Shown: positions 3,138 through 23,012 of the stretch, piece by piece
Layout of the letters: each line of letters starts with the position of its first letter
Numbering within the stretch: position 1 is the first letter of the stretch
Source of the DNA: an uncultured Pseudomonadota bacterium
GTDB taxonomy: Bacteria > Pseudomonadota > Gammaproteobacteria > Ga0077536
Direction: 5' to 3'
DNA length: 35,691 bases
Assembly: GCA_902551695.1 (NCBI GenBank)
Contig: CACDEI010000011.1
Span: 1-35,691, forward strand
Translations under genes and position numbers: made by a program
The notes under the pieces: model-generated
The model's database searches: none
What the model was told of the DNA's origin: nothing
What the model saw: only the letters and a program-made list of their open reading frames with translations

Positions 3138-3821
3138 TCATTCCGGTTTTCGATAACCTAATCGCTCATAATATTTGGCAGGAATATCTTTTTTATTTTT
3201 ATAGCAGATAACTGAGCAATGTTCTTTGCCTAATTTTTCTGCAGGTTCGACGACTATGAATGGTGAGCCGGTGTCTTCAATATCAATTCTCTCCATAGCT
3301 GACTCATGAGCACAGTAGACTGGAAAATTGGGCGTGTTGTAGTTAAGCCGATGGGGTTTTTCCATTTTTAGAAAACCGTCCTCTCCCTCGTATAGTCCTT
3401 CCTGAATTAATCGGCCTCCGCTTCCGCAAGGTTTCATTTTTATAGTTATTTTTTCTTGATCCTCTGTGATTTCTAGTGGCTGGAGATGGCCGTGTAGCCC
3501 AGATACAAACATTTTTAATTTTGCCCGAAGATCTTTGCCTCCTGCATCCATTTTTTTTCTCAGTGGTGCCCACCAAGCTCGACAGCCATCAGTCATGATT
3601 TCCTCTAGGGCTTCATCGCCATACTTTCGCCCGACTTCGCTAAGGGTTGCGGTTATCCAGTTGCGATAAAGATCGTGCATTGCTAAGAATTCGTTATACA
3701 TTTTTTTAGAAAGTTTTTTAGCTTTTTCTGGCTCTTCATTCTCAATAGCTTCTAAAATACGGTCAAGCGTTCGTTTTTCCATTTCAACAATTTCTTCATT
3801 TGAAAAAAAATCATCAGACAT
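3138..3821 (-). CDS. Cysteine-containing protein of unknown function, possibly ATC-hydrolase-like
   Basis: A 227-residue soluble protein with no signal peptide or membrane segment. The first half (about 1-115) is helical and charged. The second half carries the conserved-looking blocks PCGSGGRL, YCAHES and EHCSVICYK, so several cysteines and a histidine could form a metal or thiol site. From memory this resembles proteins related to L-2-amino-thiazoline-4-carboxylic acid hydrolase / DUF6125-type families, but I cannot confirm that. A good Shine-Dalgarno (GGGAG, about eight bases before the ATG) supports the start. It lies 83 bases upstream of the P450 on the same strand, so co-transcription is likely and a role beside the P450 is possible (inference). 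Confidence 0.75.
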   Translation of the reverse strand: MSDDFFSNEEIVEMEKRTLDRILEAIENEEPEKAKKLSKKMYNEFLAMHDLYRNWITATLSEVGRKYGDEALEEIMTDGCRAWWAPLRKKMDAGGKDLRAKLKMFVSGLHGHLQPLEITEDQEKITIKMKPCGSGGRLIQEGLYEGEDGFLKMEKPHRLNYNTPNFPVYCAHESAMERIDIEDTGSPFIVVEPAEKLGKEHCSVICYKNKKDIPAKYYERLGYRKPE

Positions 3822-6699: not shown

Positions 6700-7560
6700 G
6701 TGCAAGCCTTAAAGTATATAGCTAGCTATTGGACCTTAGCCGGGAAAGTGGTTCCACTTGGCAATCCTGAGCAAGAAGCGAGCGATGTTGGATTCCAAGA
6801 CCGCCTGGAGGTTGCTGCGAAAGCCGGATATTCTGGAGTAGGATTTATAAGTTCAGATTTAATAAAAATACGTAAAAAATTTAGTCTTGTTGAGATAAGG
6901 TCTCTGTTGAAAGATTACGGTCTACCTTATCTTGAGTTAGAGTTTCTCACTGGATGGATGGCTGACGGACGTGAATTATCTGATTCAGAAAAAATGTTCA
7001 CTGACATGTTGGAAGTGGCCGATGTAGTGGGTGTAAGACATATTAAAGTAGGTCCGGATATGGAGGGAAAGGATTGGCCATTGGAGCGAATGGTGGAGCG
7101 ATTTGCCAGGTTATGTGAACGAGCGAAAAGTGTCGGAACGATGCTTTCACTAGAAATGATGCCTTGGAGTAATCTGAACAATTTAGAATCTGCCCTGTCT
7201 GTTGTTCAGGGTGCGAATTATGACAATGGTGGTCTCTTGCTCGATATTTGGCACGTTGCTAGAGCTGATATTCCCTACGGAGCAATTTCAAGTATTCCGA
7301 GTAGAATGATCAATTATGTAGAAATTAATGATGCGGATCGGGAAGTTAAAGGGAGTCTTCTAGAAGATACGCTGAATCATCGAAGATTTTGTGGTGATGG
7401 AAGTTTTGATGTTCCAGAATTTTTGAAAGCAGTTTTATCACAAGGTTATAAAGGGCCTTTTGGTTTGGAGATTATTTCGGAAGCTCAGCGTCAGCGGTCG
7501 TTTCGTGAGGTGGCTTATGATGCTATCAAAAAAGCGAAAGAGCAGGCGTCTAAAATTTAA
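6700..7560 (+). CDS. Sugar phosphate isomerase/epimerase family TIM-barrel protein
   Basis: A 286-residue protein of the xylose-isomerase-like / AP-endonuclease-2 fold. Candidate metal ligands on barrel strands are Glu in SLEMMPW, Asp and His in LLLDIWH, Glu in NYVEIND and Glu in FGLEII. Length is typical. The start is GTG at 6700, three bases after the kinase stop, and no ATG is close by, so coupling to the upstream gene is likely. The family covers isomerases, epimerases, dehydratases and hydroxypyruvate isomerases, so the substrate cannot be assigned. As the third gene of the amidase-kinase operon it probably rearranges a product of that pathway (inference). Confidence 0.87.
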   Translation: MQALKYIASYWTLAGKVVPLGNPEQEASDVGFQDRLEVAAKAGYSGVGFISSDLIKIRKKFSLVEIRSLLKDYGLPYLELEFLTGWMADGRELSDSEKMFTDMLEVADVVGVRHIKVGPDMEGKDWPLERMVERFARLCERAKSVGTMLSLEMMPWSNLNNLESALSVVQGANYDNGGLLLDIWHVARADIPYGAISSIPSRMINYVEINDADREVKGSLLEDTLNHRRFCGDGSFDVPEFLKAVLSQGYKGPFGLEIISEAQRQRSFREVAYDAIKKAKEQASKI

Positions 7561-9407: not shown

Positions 9408-11231
9408 ATGCCAGTGAATGAGATTGATCATTTGTTAAATTCAGATAGGTTTAGTTTTGACCTGACAGAACTGCGCGCCAAATATAAAAAGGAAAGGGAC
9501 AAAAGAATACGGACTGAAGGTAATGAGCAATATGTAGAAGTAAAAGGAGATTTTTCACATTATGTCGACGATCCCTACATTGATGTTTCTTTAGAAAGGA
9601 AGCCACTCACGGATGAGGTGGACGCCTTAGTAGTAGGAGGCGGATTTGGTGGATTGTTAGCTGGTGCAAGGTTGAGGCAAGCAGGAGTCAAAAAAATCAG
9701 ATTGGTGGAAAAAGGTTCTGACTTCGGGGGTACGTGGTATTGGAATCGTTATCCAGGGGCTATGTGCGACATTGAATCCTATATTTATCTCCCTCTTCTG
9801 GAGGAATTAGGTTATATACCTAAGGAAAAATACACTAAAGCTCCGGAAATATTAGAACACTCCCGACGCATCGCTGAACATTTCGACCTATACTCTGACG
9901 CCTTGCTGCAAACTCAAGTGACGGAAGCACGTTGGGTCGAGGCAGATAAAAATTGGCGAATAACTACTAATCGCGACGATGAGATAAGGGCAAAATATTT
10001 GGTAATGGCAAATGGTCCTTTAAATAGGCCCAAACTTCCTGGAATCAAGGGAATAGATAAGTTTCAAGGGCATACCTTTCACACGAGCCGTTGGGACTAT
10101 GATTACACGGGAGGCGATGCCTCAGGTGGGCTTTCTAAGTTAAAGGATAAATGTGTGGGTGTAATAGGAACCGGTGCAACCGCCGTCCAGTGTATCCCTC
10201 ACCTAGGAGCCGCGGCGGAAAGTTTGTTTGTGTTTCAGAGAACTCCATCTTCTGTTGATGTGCGAGCAAATCAAGTTACTGATACTAATTGGGTAAAAAC
10301 GCTTACACCAGGTTGGCAAAAAAGAAGGATGGAAAACTTTAACACTTTGGTTAGTGGAGGGTATGAGAAAGAGGATTTTGTACAGGATGGTTGGACAGAA
10401 ATATTTAGAAACCTTACCGGAGTATTACCACCAGAAGGTTATGAGGCAATACCAAAAAATAAGCTTTATCTAGCCACAGAATTAGCTGACTTTGAGAAGA
10501 TGGAAAAAATACGTTCTCGAGTAGATTCTTTAGTTCGGGATGAATCTACTGCTGAGGCTTTGAAGCCTTACTATCGACAATTTTGCAAAAGGCCTTGTTT
10601 TCATGATGAATATCTTGAGACATACAATCTTCCAAATGTAACTTTGGTAGATACTGCCGGTAAGGGTGTTGCTGAGGTCACCTCCCGAGGAGTGATCGTA
10701 GATGGAAAGGAATATGAATTAGATTGCCTCATATTTGCAACAGGTTTTGAAGTGGGTACTAGTTACACTCGACGATCCGGATATGAAGTGATTGGTCAAA
10801 ATGGACGTAGGCTAGGTAAGAAATGGGAGAAAGGTCCGACGACCTTTCATGGTATGCACAGTGCAGAATTCCCAAATTGCTTTTTTATGGGCTTTATACA
10901 AACTGCCTTAACACCTAACTTTGTTCATCTTCTTCTAGAGCAAAGTAAACACATTGCTCATCTAGTTCATCATGCTGAAAAAAACAAGATAGGATCCATC
11001 GTGGCCTCGCAGGCGGCTGAAGATGAATGGTGTGCAACGATAAAGCGTCTGGCAAAGTCAGGAGAAAAGTTTTTCAGGGAATGTACTCCAGGATACTATA
11101 ACAATGAAGGTAAAGCAGATGAGGGCTATGGTTTTATTCAGAATTCATACGGCGGTGGCCCTGTCGAGTTTTTTCAAATCCTTGAAAATTGGAGAGAGCA
11201 GGGGGACATGGACGGACTTATCTTAGAATAA
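9408..11231 (+). CDS. Baeyer-Villiger monooxygenase, 607-residue long form
   Basis: Complete long-form BVMO with a clear Shine-Dalgarno before its ATG. FAD-binding GGGFGG is near residues 77-82, GGTWYWNRYPGAMCD follows, the BVMO fingerprint FQGHTFHTSRWD is near 220-231 and the NADPH Rossmann motif GTGATA near 252. The fingerprint ends in Asp, which the family allows in place of Pro. The roughly 70-residue N-terminal extension and 607-residue length match the cyclopentadecanone-monooxygenase-like branch. It is a close paralog of the truncated gene at the window start (shared blocks CDIESYIYLPLLEE and ECTPGYYNNEG-type tail). It converges on the amidohydrolase gene with only seven bases between stops. 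Expected reaction is ketone to ester or lactone; substrate unknown. Confidence 0.95.
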   Translation: MPVNEIDHLLNSDRFSFDLTELRAKYKKERDKRIRTEGNEQYVEVKGDFSHYVDDPYIDVSLERKPLTDEVDALVVGGGFGGLLAGARLRQAGVKKIRLVEKGSDFGGTWYWNRYPGAMCDIESYIYLPLLEELGYIPKEKYTKAPEILEHSRRIAEHFDLYSDALLQTQVTEARWVEADKNWRITTNRDDEIRAKYLVMANGPLNRPKLPGIKGIDKFQGHTFHTSRWDYDYTGGDASGGLSKLKDKCVGVIGTGATAVQCIPHLGAAAESLFVFQRTPSSVDVRANQVTDTNWVKTLTPGWQKRRMENFNTLVSGGYEKEDFVQDGWTEIFRNLTGVLPPEGYEAIPKNKLYLATELADFEKMEKIRSRVDSLVRDESTAEALKPYYRQFCKRPCFHDEYLETYNLPNVTLVDTAGKGVAEVTSRGVIVDGKEYELDCLIFATGFEVGTSYTRRSGYEVIGQNGRRLGKKWEKGPTTFHGMHSAEFPNCFFMGFIQTALTPNFVHLLLEQSKHIAHLVHHAEKNKIGSIVASQAAEDEWCATIKRLAKSGEKFFRECTPGYYNNEGKADEGYGFIQNSYGGGPVEFFQILENWREQGDMDGLILE

Positions 11232-17884: not shown

Positions 17885-18325
17885 ATGAAGATCTGGGTTG
17901 ATGCAGATGCTTGTCCCTTAGTAGTTAAAGAGATTCTGTATCGGGCAGCCGAACGCAAAAAAATAGAAATGTTTCTGGTGGCTAACAGTTATCTCAAGAC
18001 ACCACCTTCTCAACTGATTAAATTCTTGAAGGTGCCGTCTGGATTTGATAATGCCGACGAAGAGATAGTGAAAAGAGCAGTTGCGGGAGATTTAATAGTC
18101 ACAGCAGATGTTCCACTCGCGGCTGCCGTTCTTGAGAAGCAATGTTTGGTTCTCAGTCCGAGAGGCGAGGTTTTCAGTTCGGAGACTATAGGAGAGCGGT
18201 TGGCAATCAGGGATTTCATGAGTACGCTCCGCTCCAGTGGTGTCAAAACCGGAGGACCTTCGGTTTTAAGTCAGACTGATAGACAGAAATTTGCAAACAA
18301 ACTAGATGTTATGTTGAATCAGTAA
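17885..18325 (+). CDS. yaiI: YaiI/YqxD family (DUF188) protein
   Basis: A 146-residue protein of the UPF0178 family. The start [24 protein letters not shown] is almost the textbook N-terminus of E. coli YaiI, and the block [29 protein letters not shown] with aspartates typical of a PIN-like nuclease fold follows. The biochemical role of the family is not settled. I use the ATG at 17885, which matches the family, rather than a TTG four codons upstream. It is the last gene before the riboswitch locus. Confidence 0.93.
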
Positions 18326-18476
18326 AGATAACTTCAGGAATATACATAAAGAATAACTGAAGTATTTGGTATCAACGGCTTAGCCTCCCGTATATATCTC
18401 GATTCTGGTGATTTTTTGAGTTAAATCAAGGCTAAAGAGTTTGTTTTTCCAAAAAACATATGCTAACTTGCTCCAT

Positions 18477-18525
18477 CGTTCACCTCTATTCGCTAGAGGC
18501 GGAAGTAGGCCGACGGAAGGAACGC
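18477..18525 (+). ncRNA. Glutamine riboswitch-like aptamer, copy 1
   Basis: The element carries the core of the glnA / Downstream-peptide glutamine riboswitch family. P1 is CGTTC (18477-18481) with GAACG (18520-18524). P2 is a hairpin CCTCTA/TAGAGG (18483-18488 and 18494-18499) with a five-base loop. The E-loop-like strand CGGAAGTAGG begins at 18500, and the element closes with AAGGAACGC. The short linker between AGTAGG and the closing strand leaves little room for the P3 hairpin of glnA RNA, so it looks closer to the Downstream-peptide form. This is recognised from memory of the consensus and was not scored against a model. Confidence 0.82.
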
Positions 18526-18527
18526 AA

Positions 18528-18593
18528 CGTTCATCCTCTCTGGTTTAAGAGAGGCCTCATGAGAGGACGGAAGTACGGCGACCAAAGGAACGC
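18528..18593 (+). ncRNA. Glutamine riboswitch-like aptamer, copy 2
   Basis: This copy begins three bases after copy 1. P1 is CGTTC (18528-18532) with GAACG (18588-18592), and CGGAAGTACG begins at 18568. P2 is longer: TCCTCTC (18534-18540) can pair with GAGAGGA at 18561-18567, which abuts the core as in the consensus, or six of its bases with an earlier GAGAGG at 18549-18554. The P2 arm therefore has two mutually exclusive forms. TCCTC at 18534-18538 is also complementary to GAGGA of the downstream Shine-Dalgarno (18652-18656), a possible route to translational control (inference). Confidence 0.82.
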
Positions 18594-18665
18594 ATTTTGT
18601 AATTATCTTCTAGCTTTTTAGAAGATCATTAACTTATTTGCATTAACTTTGGAGGAATTTCCGAA

Positions 18666-18875
18666 ATGATAGCTTCAAAAGATACCATGTTCTCCCGAGA
18701 CCCCAGGTCTTTCAAGGAGACTGACACGACCAGTAAAAAGAACGAAGAGGACTTGTCAGCTTTGACTGAAGTCTCTCGTCGAGTCGATCCTCGGTATCCA
18801 ACTACACCCTTTGTTACTGGAGAGGACGGTAAAAAGTATTACTTTGAGTATTCAGTGTGGGATAAATACTACTGA
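18666..18875 (+). CDS. 69-residue protein under tandem glutamine-riboswitch-like leader
   Basis: A small, hydrophilic, charged protein (about 1-45 rich in K, E, D, S and T) with a more ordered, aromatic C-terminus: TTPFVTGEDGKKYYFEYS, then VWDKYY at the end. It has no signal peptide, membrane segment or cysteine. The ATG has a strong GGAGGA Shine-Dalgarno, and coding is supported by the placement of two structured RNA elements directly upstream. I do not recognise the family. In cyanobacteria, glutamine riboswitches precede small open reading frames, including the glutamine synthetase inactivating factor IF17, so a small nitrogen-status effector is an attractive guess. I see no sequence resemblance that would prove it. 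Confidence 0.75.
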   Translation: MIASKDTMFSRDPRSFKETDTTSKKNEEDLSALTEVSRRVDPRYPTTPFVTGEDGKKYYFEYSVWDKYY

Positions 18876-18886
18876 TACGTTAGCCT

Positions 18887-18963
18887 GCCTTATGCTCGCA
18901 ACGAATGCGACCGGTTTTCTTAAGACTGGTTTCTAGGGGAATGGCTCTTTGTGGGCATAAGGC
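18887..18963. other. Long stem-loop 3' of the 69-codon gene
   Basis: GCCTTATGCTCGC (18887-18899) pairs with GTGGGCATAAGGC (18951-18963): 13 base pairs, 11 Watson-Crick and two G-U. The enclosed segment has its own nine-pair hairpin at 18910-18930 with a three-base loop. The element starts 12 bases after the stop codon and ends 31 bases before the convergent VOC gene. There is no good U-tract on either side, so it may be an mRNA 3' stabiliser, a bidirectional terminator of unusual form, or an independent structured RNA. Confidence 0.55.
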
Positions 18964-18994
18964 TTAATCTTCTGGCTGACTTTCTTTAGGTTGG

Positions 18995-19490: not shown

Positions 19491-21098
19491 CTAACTGATG
19501 AGGCATTCGGCAAAACCGCCTTTCCTTACTTTATCGCAATGTTCTCGATAAACATTAGCGCCTCCACAATAAGGGATTACTCTTCGCATTTTCCCCGGGA
19601 CATTTGCGCTGGTGTACCATGAGTCTACTTTTGAAACTAACGTTTCATCCGCAACCTCATCATGGTGTTTGACCCATTCCTGTTCGGCCTGCAATGATGG
19701 TTCAACACTTTTCGCACCTCTTTCCCTGACATGCCTGATGCAGTCAGAGATCCAGTCGACACTTTGCTCAACGCAAGTAGGCACATTACAAAAAGCAGCT
19801 ACAGGAGACATTGGAGCCATTACCATAAACATGTTCGGATAACCATGAACCTGAAGGCCCATGAAGGTACTGATTCCTTTGTCATTCCATTCATCTCTAA
19901 GAAGGCGTCTGTCTTTCCCATAGAGATCGATCGAGGTTAAAGCGCCGGTACCAGCATCAAAACCCGTCGCAAAGATTAAAGAATCTAGTTCGTAGAATGT
20001 TTTTGAGGTTCGGATTCCATTTTTTTCTATGCTTTGCAGTGGCTCCTCATTCACATCTACGAGGTTCACGTTTTCCTGGTTAAATATTTCATAATATTGA
20101 TTTTCCAATGGGACTCTGCGAGTTCCAAAACCGTGATCACTTGGGATTAGTTTATTTGCTAACTCTGGATCATTAATGCGGGCTCGAATCTTTTGTTTCA
20201 CAAAGTTAGACACTTCTCGGTTAGCTTCTTCTTCGAAAAAAATCTCTGGAAACTGACCGATCCAAAAGCTCAGTGAGCCATCAGCCCAGTATTTTTCCAT
20301 CATCTTCTTGCGTGCCGGAGGTTCGAGGTCTTTAAAAGGGACTTCTTGAAAGTCAAAGGAAAATCCGGCGAAGGTTTCATTTCGTTGCTTTTTAATGTCA
20401 GGATATTTTTTTCTTAATTCTGTTCTTTTTTTGTCGTCGTATTTTGGGTTTCTCATTGGGATTGTGTAATTGGCTGTGCGTTGGAAGACTGTGAGGCTTT
20501 CGACGTTTTTTCCTATACTTTGAATTACTTGAATTCCCGTCGCACCTGTCCCAATCACCCCGACTCTTTTGTCCTCGGTCATTAGCCCTTCTTGTGGCCA
20601 GCGGCTTGTATGAATCATTTTACCTTGAAAATCCTTGATTCCATCAACTTCGGGGTTTTTAGGAACGGTCAGGCCTCCACTTCCCATAACTAAAAAACTG
20701 GCAGACAAACTCATTCCTTCAGCAGTGATGATATTCCAAGTTTGGTCTTCTTCGTCATAGCGAGCTTCTGTAACTTGTTGTCCGAATTTGTAGTGGCTTT
20801 TCAGGTCTAGTTTATCGGCAACAAAGTTGAGATATCGCTCCGTCTCTTGTTGCGAAGGAAAGCGCTCACTCCAATTCCATTCGTTGAGAATTTCTTTTGA
20901 AAAAAAATATTGGTATACGTAGGACTGAGAATCGGTTCTTGCTCCCGGATAGCGGTTCCAATACCAAGTGCCCCCAACCCCGTTACCAGCCTCAACACCA
21001 CAGACTTTTAATCCCAAATCTCTTAACTTGAAGACTGTATACAGACCTGTGAATCCTGCTCCGACAACTAAAGCGTCGTAATTGTTTGTATGTGACAT
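19491..21098 (-). CDS. Baeyer-Villiger monooxygenase, short form (paralog 1 of tandem pair)
   Basis: A 535-residue BVMO of the cyclohexanone / phenylacetone / steroid monooxygenase type. FAD motif VVGAGFTGLY is at residues 12-21, GGTWYWNRYPGARTDSQS follows, the fingerprint FQGKMIHTSRWP is near 155-166, and the NADPH motif GTGATG near 184. The C-terminal region has LIFATGFDAGTGAL and a SWYTSANVPGK segment. A Shine-Dalgarno (GGAG, nine bases upstream) supports the start. It clearly differs in length and N-terminus from the two long-form BVMOs at 2 and 9408, but is a close paralog of its upstream neighbour. Confidence 0.95.
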   Translation of the reverse strand: MSHTNNYDALVVGAGFTGLYTVFKLRDLGLKVCGVEAGNGVGGTWYWNRYPGARTDSQSYVYQYFFSKEILNEWNWSERFPSQQETERYLNFVADKLDLKSHYKFGQQVTEARYDEEDQTWNIITAEGMSLSASFLVMGSGGLTVPKNPEVDGIKDFQGKMIHTSRWPQEGLMTEDKRVGVIGTGATGIQVIQSIGKNVESLTVFQRTANYTIPMRNPKYDDKKRTELRKKYPDIKKQRNETFAGFSFDFQEVPFKDLEPPARKKMMEKYWADGSLSFWIGQFPEIFFEEEANREVSNFVKQKIRARINDPELANKLIPSDHGFGTRRVPLENQYYEIFNQENVNLVDVNEEPLQSIEKNGIRTSKTFYELDSLIFATGFDAGTGALTSIDLYGKDRRLLRDEWNDKGISTFMGLQVHGYPNMFMVMAPMSPVAAFCNVPTCVEQSVDWISDCIRHVRERGAKSVEPSLQAEQEWVKHHDEVADETLVSKVDSWYTSANVPGKMRRVIPYCGGANVYREHCDKVRKGGFAECLIS

Positions 21099-21253: not shown

Positions 21254-22894
21254 CTATGTCATGGTGAAGCCTGAATATCCAGACTCGGCCACTTCAATAC
21301 ATTTCTCTCTGTAGGCGCCTACACCACCAATGTAGGAAAGTAATCTCCGCGGCTTCCCATCAACATTAGAACCCATGTACCAGGAATGTGTTTTCGTCAC
21401 TAAAGTTGCTTCGGCCGTCTCATCATGATGGGTGACCCAGTCATCTTGTGCTTTCTCGGTAGGTTCTATGACCTTTTTATTTTGCTTTCTTACATGCGCA
21501 ATGCAGTCATTTATCCACTCAGCCTGCTGTTGAAGACAGGTTGTCATGTTACATAGAGCAGCGGAAGGGGCGAGGGGTGCTCCCGTGGTAAATAGGTTCG
21601 GGTAACCATGTATCTGTAGTCCCATCGTGGTGCGTATTTCTTCTTGCCATTCGTTTTTTAGGGCTCTGCCGTCTCGCCCTTTGATGTCAATTCGGGTCAA
21701 AGCTCCGGATCCTGCATCAAAGCCCGTTGCAAGAATAATTACATCGAGCTCGAAGACTGTTCCATCTTGCAGTATCAACCCTTCCGGCGAAACATGGGAA
21801 ATCGGGTTTTCTTTGACACTTACAGCTGAAACGTGAGGAAGATGGTAGGTTTCTAAATAGCCACTTTCTAGTGGAACTCGATGTGTGCCAAATCCATAAT
21901 CAGTAGGTATTAGTAATTCACACAATCGATCATCTTTGAGACGTTCTCTCATTTTATTTCGGACAAACTCCGATACTTGCTCATTTATTTCTGCATCAAA
22001 GAAAATTTCCTTAAAAGAGGATAACCAAAGCTCTAGGGAACCGTTCTCCCAAATCCTTTCCAGAACCGCTTCTCGTTCCTCAGGGGAGTTTTCTGACCAG
22101 CTTCCATCTTGCCATTCGAATTCAAATCCAGAAAATGTTTTAGGCAAATTTTCTTGGAACCATTCAAATCTGGCTTTGTATTCAGCAACCTCTTTTTCCC
22201 CATATTTAGGGTTGTTCATTGCGTTTACATATTGAGGACTTCGTATAAAGACCTTAAGCTCGCCACAATCCGGAGCTATCGTTTGGATAACTTGAATTCC
22301 TGTGGCGCCATTGCCGACTACGCCTACACGTTTGCCTGAAAAATCCAGTTTGTTTTTTGGCCACCTTGAAGTATGAAAAACTTCCCCCTTAAATTCGTTG
22401 ATGCCTGGGAAGGGCTCCGCTAGGGGTGCAGACAGCATTCCCGCACAAGATACCACGAACTGGCAGTTTATTTGTTGATTGTCCTCGGTTACTAAACTCC
22501 ATCTTTCAGCTTCGTTATCCCAATCTGCTGATTTTATCGTGGTATTGAACTGGATGTCCTTTCGGAGATCGAGTCTATCGGCCACGTAATTCATCCAACG
22601 CTCGATTTCGGGTTGTCCGGGGAAGCGTTCAGACCAACTCCAATCTTTGTATAGTTTTTCATCGAACAGGTATTGATAAATATAGCTTTCTGAATCGAAT
22701 TTGGCTCCGGGATAGCGGTTCCAATACCACGTTCCCCCCACCCCTGAAGCTGTATCGAAGGCCTTCACGTTGAGACCTTGTTTTCGCAGTAAATGTAACT
22801 GATATAGTCCTGCTACACCGGTTCCGATAATTGCGGCATCTAAGTTTAAATTCTCTGATTTTACTGCTTCTGCGGCAGCGTTATTTGCGCCCAT
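21254..22894 (-). CDS. Baeyer-Villiger monooxygenase, short form (paralog 2 of tandem pair)
   Basis: A 546-residue BVMO. FAD motif GTGVAG is at 24-29, GGTWYWNRYPGAKFDSES follows, the fingerprint FKGEVFHTSRWP is near 165, and NADPH motif GNGATG follows, with Asn where most relatives have Thr. The ATG at 22894 is chosen over the ATG ten codons upstream (22924) because GAGGAG sits six bases before it. It shares long blocks with the downstream gene (YQYLFDEK against YQYFFSKE, WSWSERFPGQ against WNWSERFPSQ, LIPTDYGFGTHRVPLE against LIPSDHGFGTRRVPLE), so the two arose by tandem duplication. Both are intact, which argues for different substrate ranges. Confidence 0.95.
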   Translation of the reverse strand: MGANNAAAEAVKSENLNLDAAIIGTGVAGLYQLHLLRKQGLNVKAFDTASGVGGTWYWNRYPGAKFDSESYIYQYLFDEKLYKDWSWSERFPGQPEIERWMNYVADRLDLRKDIQFNTTIKSADWDNEAERWSLVTEDNQQINCQFVVSCAGMLSAPLAEPFPGINEFKGEVFHTSRWPKNKLDFSGKRVGVVGNGATGIQVIQTIAPDCGELKVFIRSPQYVNAMNNPKYGEKEVAEYKARFEWFQENLPKTFSGFEFEWQDGSWSENSPEEREAVLERIWENGSLELWLSSFKEIFFDAEINEQVSEFVRNKMRERLKDDRLCELLIPTDYGFGTHRVPLESGYLETYHLPHVSAVSVKENPISHVSPEGLILQDGTVFELDVIILATGFDAGSGALTRIDIKGRDGRALKNEWQEEIRTTMGLQIHGYPNLFTTGAPLAPSAALCNMTTCLQQQAEWINDCIAHVRKQNKKVIEPTEKAQDDWVTHHDETAEATLVTKTHSWYMGSNVDGKPRRLLSYIGGVGAYREKCIEVAESGYSGFTMT

Positions 22895-23012
22895 CTTTGT
22901 CTCCTCTACAAGATTCCATGACATCGTACTTAAGCGGTCGTTCGAGGACTGTTTTATATGCTCAAATTTAATGTTGCAAAACGACTTACGGTATTAGAGC
23001 ATTAACAGCTTA

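Follow-up and report, generated by a model that had tools for sequence, protein, structure and literature searches.

Two short, nearly touching elements upstream of a small gene in an uncultured bacterium raise the question of whether they form a glutamine-responsive switch and, if so, what that switch would control in a host that is not a cyanobacterium. We analyzed the window, the whole 35,691-nucleotide stretch of DNA in which they lie, which is contig 11 of a 1.43-Mb genome that is 72% complete (G000). A cmscan search of the entire 35.7-kb window against all 4227 Rfam families returned exactly two matches above curated cut-offs, both to RF01739 (Glutamine, the glnA leader; gathering cut-off 35 bits) and both on the forward strand: 18475-18524 with 40.4 bits and 18526-18596 with 42.1 bits (E values 4.7e-6 and 1.5e-5). 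Scored alone, copy 1 reaches 49 bits and copy 2 reaches 42 bits. A covariance-model scan of 18300-18950 for RF01704 (Downstream-peptide) gave no match at E ≤ 1, and a glutamine-II identity was rejected on this ground. Of the two families to which a preliminary description had ascribed the aptamer core, glnA is borne out for both copies and Downstream-peptide is not.

The helices can be read directly in the sequence as that description had them, two adjacent elements each with a CGTTC/GAACG P1, a P2 hairpin and the core. Copy 1 (18475-18527, forward strand; 40.4-49 bits to RF01739, and placed in a census of 259 aptamers) forms P1 from 18477-18481 (CGTTC) and 18520-18524 (GAACG) and P2 from 18483-18488 (CCTCTA) and 18494-18499 (TAGAGG), followed by the core CGGAAGTA at 18500-18507; P3 is essentially absent. 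Copy 2 (18528-18596, forward strand; 42.1 bits) forms P1 from 18528-18532 (CGTTC) and 18588-18592 (GAACG) and P2 from 18534-18540 (TCCTCTC) and 18561-18567 (GAGAGGA) around a 20-nt loop, with CGGAAGTA at 18568-18575 and a P3 of two G-C pairs and a triloop. In both copies all five pairs of P1 and at least five of P2 are standard, and the conserved CGGAAGUA core is present. The sole bases separating the two P1 helices are CAA at 18525-18527, the three-base gap noticed earlier: the first P1 closes at 18524 and the second opens at 18528. Set against the 5DDP construct (PMC5393176), both copies retain the glutamine contacts listed for the crystal structure (C1-G59, G22 and C58 in 5DDP numbering; PMC6698751). 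Because both keep the same ligand contacts, the 'two-input' response once proposed is unlikely; a sharper response from the putative tandem sensor is possible. A sister species has this pair too (G002; 42 and 38.7 bits), which argues against a chance match. Judged by its sequence, the window element is a genuine glutamine-I riboswitch in tandem, of an ordinary kind.

Its two copies are nonetheless unusual in detail when set against the census, whose 259 aptamers were gathered with patterns requiring much of the core. P3 is the shortest of all, one contiguous pair, in copy 1 of both the window and G002, and copy 2 has two pairs; the usual 3-4 pairs are found in 225 of the 259. In loop E, copy 2 of both species has A for the G that precedes AAGGAAC in 257 of the 259, a change otherwise unseen. 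Loop E of copy 1 is intact in the window and mutated in G002, where it reads CGGAATTA, a form that occurs nowhere else in the census. From our knowledge of loop E motifs, we take the G-to-A change in copy 2 to be mild and the G-to-U change in copy 1 of G002 to be damaging. Copy 1 looks weak because it has no P3 and its counterpart in the sister species has a core mutation, which suggests that it may be decaying; the pair shows apparent signs of aptamer simplification or decay. Both copies score above the RF01739 cut-off despite the reduced P3. Since P3 points out of the fold and is missing from glutamine-II aptamers (PMC6698751), it may, by analogy, not be required. The pair resembles glutamine-II RNAs in its related core, its small downstream ORF and its little or no P3, but it lacks a match to their model and no pseudoknot strand was identified in it. 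With glutamine-I riboswitches it shares P1, P2, the CGGAAGUA core and the GGAACG closing strand; it differs from them in P3, in the A of copy 2, and in a host outside the Cyanobacteria, SAR11, SAR116 and SAR86.

What lies downstream is, as first described, a small gene other than glutamine synthetase: a 69-aa ORF (18666-18875, forward strand), the sole gene on the predicted transcript, with a 90% identical ORF in G002. Its ribosome-binding region, CUUUGGAGGAAUUUCCG (18647-18663, forward strand), is 100% conserved in G002 and includes a good Shine-Dalgarno sequence, GGAGG at 18651-18655, 10 nt before the ATG. This region is complementary to two segments of aptamer 2, CCAAAG (18582-18587) and CGGAAGU (18568-18574). 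An AU-rich hairpin in the linker that runs from aptamer 2 to the ribosome-binding site (18600-18631, forward strand; -9.2 kcal/mol, z -4.4) is re-formed in G002 with different pairs; as no U-run follows, it is not an intrinsic terminator. Transcription attenuation was rejected because the leader has no terminator-like site, and a consensus search found no sigma-70 promoter. A strong imperfect palindrome (18880-18975, no strand assigned) separates the ORF from the convergent VOC gene; it marks the probable transcript end and is possibly a two-way terminator or other structured RNA. The region 18876-18980 folds at -41.7 kcal/mol (z -4.4), and the intergenic stretch is 97.5% identical in G002, conserved beyond other intergenic DNA (p 0.009); the palindrome has no repeat within the window.

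The 69-aa ORF has no match in Pfam (E ≤ 1), PHROGs, NCBIfam, phages or viral contigs and nothing significant in the PDB, and the G002 ORF has no Pfam match at E ≤ 10. A DUF4278/IF17 identity (PF14105) was rejected on these Pfam results, a phage origin because the ORF has no relative in phages, viral contigs or PHROGs, and a plasmid origin because plasmid matches appear only at E 6-10. An AlphaFold model built from the two sequences is uninformative (mean pLDDT 56.5). Elsewhere on this 35-kb contig, four genes appear by sequence to encode Baeyer-Villiger-type flavin monooxygenases (107-1789, 9408-11231, 19491-21098 and 21254-22924; a Pfam test covered the last two).

How might the leader act on this ORF? 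On balance, we favor a switch in a one-gene transcript that controls translation of the 69-aa ORF in response to glutamine, probably ON, with copy 2 as the working sensor. Without glutamine, the core of copy 2 and CCAAAG would pair with the stretches on either flank of the Shine-Dalgarno sequence; with glutamine bound, copy 2 would lock the same strands into P1 and loop E, the ribosome-binding site would be easier to open, and translation would rise. Copy 1 would be a second, weaker sensor competing with copy 2 through a GAACG-CAA-CGUUC hairpin, a competition that may steepen the response. In the ligand-free minimum-energy fold, CCAAAG and CGGAAGU of copy 2 pair with CUUUGG and AUUUCCG flanking the Shine-Dalgarno core, the CCAAAG:CUUUGG pairing having a probability of ~0.99 in both species. 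Since the strands it uses are part of P3, the closing linker and the conserved core, this pairing is incompatible with the glutamine-bound form. An equally strong anti-RBS duplex arose in 65 of 2000 shuffles (3%), so the predicted pairing is no more than moderately supported. The hairpin between the copies also appears in the predicted free fold and would compete with both P1 helices, although conservation of the P1 sequence would allow such a hairpin in any tandem.

Forcing aptamer 2 to fold, with or without copy 1, lowers the predicted cost of opening the stretch from Shine-Dalgarno to AUG from 11.5 to 8.0-8.4 kcal/mol in the window species and from 11.1 to 8.0-8.1 kcal/mol in G002; the cost barely moves when copy 1 alone is forced. 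Our best guess is thus an ON switch that copy 2 drives, and the window has the most negative opening-cost change among 102 riboswitch-gene pairs put through the same calculation. Across these 102 loci, however, the energy model was not validated as a predictor of direction: it comes out mostly OFF for DUF4278 genes, a target class that is ON in cyanobacteria (PMC6316151), and we therefore place little weight on the sign of the change. For this reason, and because the bound state still contains a local hairpin at the RBS (-5.3 kcal/mol), the modeled ON direction is weakly supported.

The unit has few relatives. The window pair gives the only RF01739 matches above cut-off in its genome; a further candidate, an 18.5-bit match on contig C22, was rejected as near chance. 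Three species of the genus were compared: G000, its sister G002 and G001 (90% complete). Neither the aptamer tandem nor the 69-aa ORF was found in G001, and a look for an empty site there found neither flanking gene. Across the order, RF01739 matches occur in 2 of 36 genomes, both of the window's genus, and the riboswitch-ORF unit is missing both from G001 and from the 33 other genomes. Glutamine-I aptamers are likewise rare in the class Gammaproteobacteria (4 of 369 genomes in an even sample, mostly small): besides the window genome, they occur in a SAR86-like genome of 0.9 Mb, which has five aptamers, and in two others of 1.1 and 1.2 Mb. The gammaproteobacterial placement given earlier for the host rests on genome kinship to the SAR86-like genome: we infer the class from this same-class genome, whose outer-membrane protein is 55-59% identical to SAR86 and Pseudomonadota records and whose ammonium transporter is 76% identical to a record labelled Gammaproteobacteria.

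Substitution counts between the window species and G002, a comparison of two species only, bear on whether the unit is still in use. Nearby intergenic DNA is 8-11% different between them, with 48 substitutions in 501 sites, against 0 in 94 for aptamer 2 together with the ribosome-binding site (Fisher p 3e-4); one base is inserted in the P2 loop of aptamer 2 in G002. Aptamer 1, with 2 substitutions in 53 sites, is not distinguishable from neutral. The ORF keeps its frame and start in G002 and has 10 changes in 207 sites, fewer than neighboring synonymous sites (p 0.001); these comprise 3 synonymous and 7 non-synonymous changes, with no synonymous excess, and its pN/pS is 0.63 vs 0.05-0.22 in neighbors (p 0.006). 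From these sequences, the ORF is kept as a frame and its protein is putative. A decaying riboswitch-ORF unit, with no proper response or with only copy 2 still working, would account for the near absence of P3 in both copies, the CGGAATTA mutation in the sister's copy 1, amino-acid changes that are not depleted, and the absence from the third species and the rest of the order. We think such decay rather unlikely, because aptamer 2 and the ribosome-binding site are free of substitutions, P1, P2 and the glutamine contacts are intact, and the ORF has kept its frame and start while changing less overall than neighboring synonymous sites.

An OFF switch, in which the glutamine-bound aptamers leave the ribosome-binding site of the 69-aa ORF in a local hairpin, draws on the same folds. 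With both aptamers folded, the hairpin UUUGGAG-GAAU-UUCCGAA buries the Shine-Dalgarno sequence, and many riboswitch-linked small ORFs in viral contigs come out OFF by the same calculation. We regard this direction as unlikely, given that the opening cost is lower, not higher, in the bound state of both species and that the glutamine-I and -II riboswitches studied so far before small proteins are ON, raising expression (PMC6316151, PMC6698751). It is very improbable that the element is a structured RNA that shares the core but has another ligand or no switching function: the non-consensus P3, the unusual nucleotide before AAGGAAC and scores below those of the SAR86-like copies (57-71 bits) would fit, but the element exceeds the curated cut-off in two species and its ligand-contacting positions in P1 and the core are unchanged.

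The favored reading, a translational switch worked by copy 2, uses a layout that is already known. Tandem glnA RNAs have been published (Weinberg 2010; PMC2864571), with 157 doublets and 4 triplets tallied in a 2022 review (PMC9481103). We searched GTDB genomes and viral contigs with sequence patterns and required P1 and P2 to pair; at least 128 tandem pairs, the window included, remained, and such pairs are common in marine Proteobacteria and viral contigs. The window shares with them two like aptamers in one leader, a pseudo-cooperative arrangement, but its 3-nt gap, also that of G002, is the shortest among the matches listed. Among these matches, the gap is 17-18 nt in most cellular pairs, mainly alphaproteobacterial, 6-9 nt in SAR86-type loci and 6-11 nt in nearly all viral contigs. 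Also among the matches listed, tandems of marine Alphaproteobacteria (SAR116, Pelagibacteraceae and unnamed single-cell genomes) precede amtB, glnA or a gene for a 468-aa protein; those of SAR86 precede glnA, an outer-membrane protein gene or small ORFs; one in a record labelled Porticoccaceae precedes a DUF4278-like protein gene; and many in viral contigs precede ~50-aa ORFs.

Several of these neighbors are of interest in themselves. In many viral contigs, a family of ~50-aa ORFs (MTKYQ...YITDNPFYP) lies ~20 nt 3' of tandem glutamine-I aptamers, at L145, L150, L157, L165, L198, L232, L248 and other loci; the one member tested has no Pfam match. DUF4278-like small proteins with YRG repeats are encoded directly downstream of glutamine-I aptamers in SAR86, the Porticoccaceae-labelled record and genome G210 (L127, downstream of reverse-strand 3527-3634; L091, of 7396-7501; L264, of 1501-1637), so the cyanobacterial pairing of riboswitch and DUF4278-like small protein occurs in Proteobacteria. 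Single glutamine-I aptamers precede genes that, annotated by eye, resemble gltB and gltD, the large and small subunits of glutamate synthase (L263 and L265, in G320, a genome of 1.1 Mb). Like the marine-phage glutamine riboswitches (PMC9004378) and the tandem copies before ~50-aa ORFs in viral contigs, the window pair belongs to a marine heterotroph system; unlike them, it has no recognized phage gene around it, and its ORF is unrelated to phage proteins. It likewise shares with the Synechocystis gifB riboswitch a position before a small protein and a probable ON response (PMC6316151). The DUF4278 and IF17 proteins are small inactivators of glutamine synthetase (PMC6316151), whereas neither DUF4278 nor any other known domain is detectable in the 69-aa ORF.

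The nitrogen genes of the genus offer a setting for such a protein, which would presumably act when nitrogen is plentiful. The incomplete genomes of the three species (G000-G002) yielded no GlnE, nor did six genomes of the related genus g3 (G004, G012, G018, G023, G027 and G030); every other genome searched in the order has it. No type I GlnA scores above cut-off in the incomplete genomes of the window's genus, and g3 has one. The window genome encodes a glutamine synthetase of type III, which scores 634.7 bits to TIGR03105. Two PII genes share one contig there, lying among genes that resemble ammonium transporters. In a lineage where GlnE is missing, a small protein that responds to glutamine would make sense, but no link was found between the 69-aa protein and glutamine synthetase. 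It is a long shot that the ORF encodes a new kind of nitrogen-assimilation regulator, induced by glutamine and without relation to DUF4278/IF17, in a genus that has no detected GlnE or type I GlnA and takes in nitrogen by way of a type III glutamine synthetase, with the closely spaced aptamers coupled by the shared P1-strand hairpin into an AND-like switch.

The window thus adds neither a new RNA class nor a new arrangement; what is new is the host genus, the orphan 69-aa gene, unlike DUF4278/IF17, and the unusual copies. The glutamine sensor was called restricted to cyanobacteria in a 2018 review (PMC6316151), and a gammaproteobacterial lineage besides SAR86 now joins its users. With P3 nearly lost and a spacing of 3 nt, the pair is a compact natural variant on which the requirements of the aptamer can be tested. 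The place held elsewhere by DUF4278 proteins is occupied here by an orphan small protein unrelated to them, and, if the switch works, glutamine-riboswitch control of small proteins would be suggested as a recurring solution in streamlined marine bacteria.
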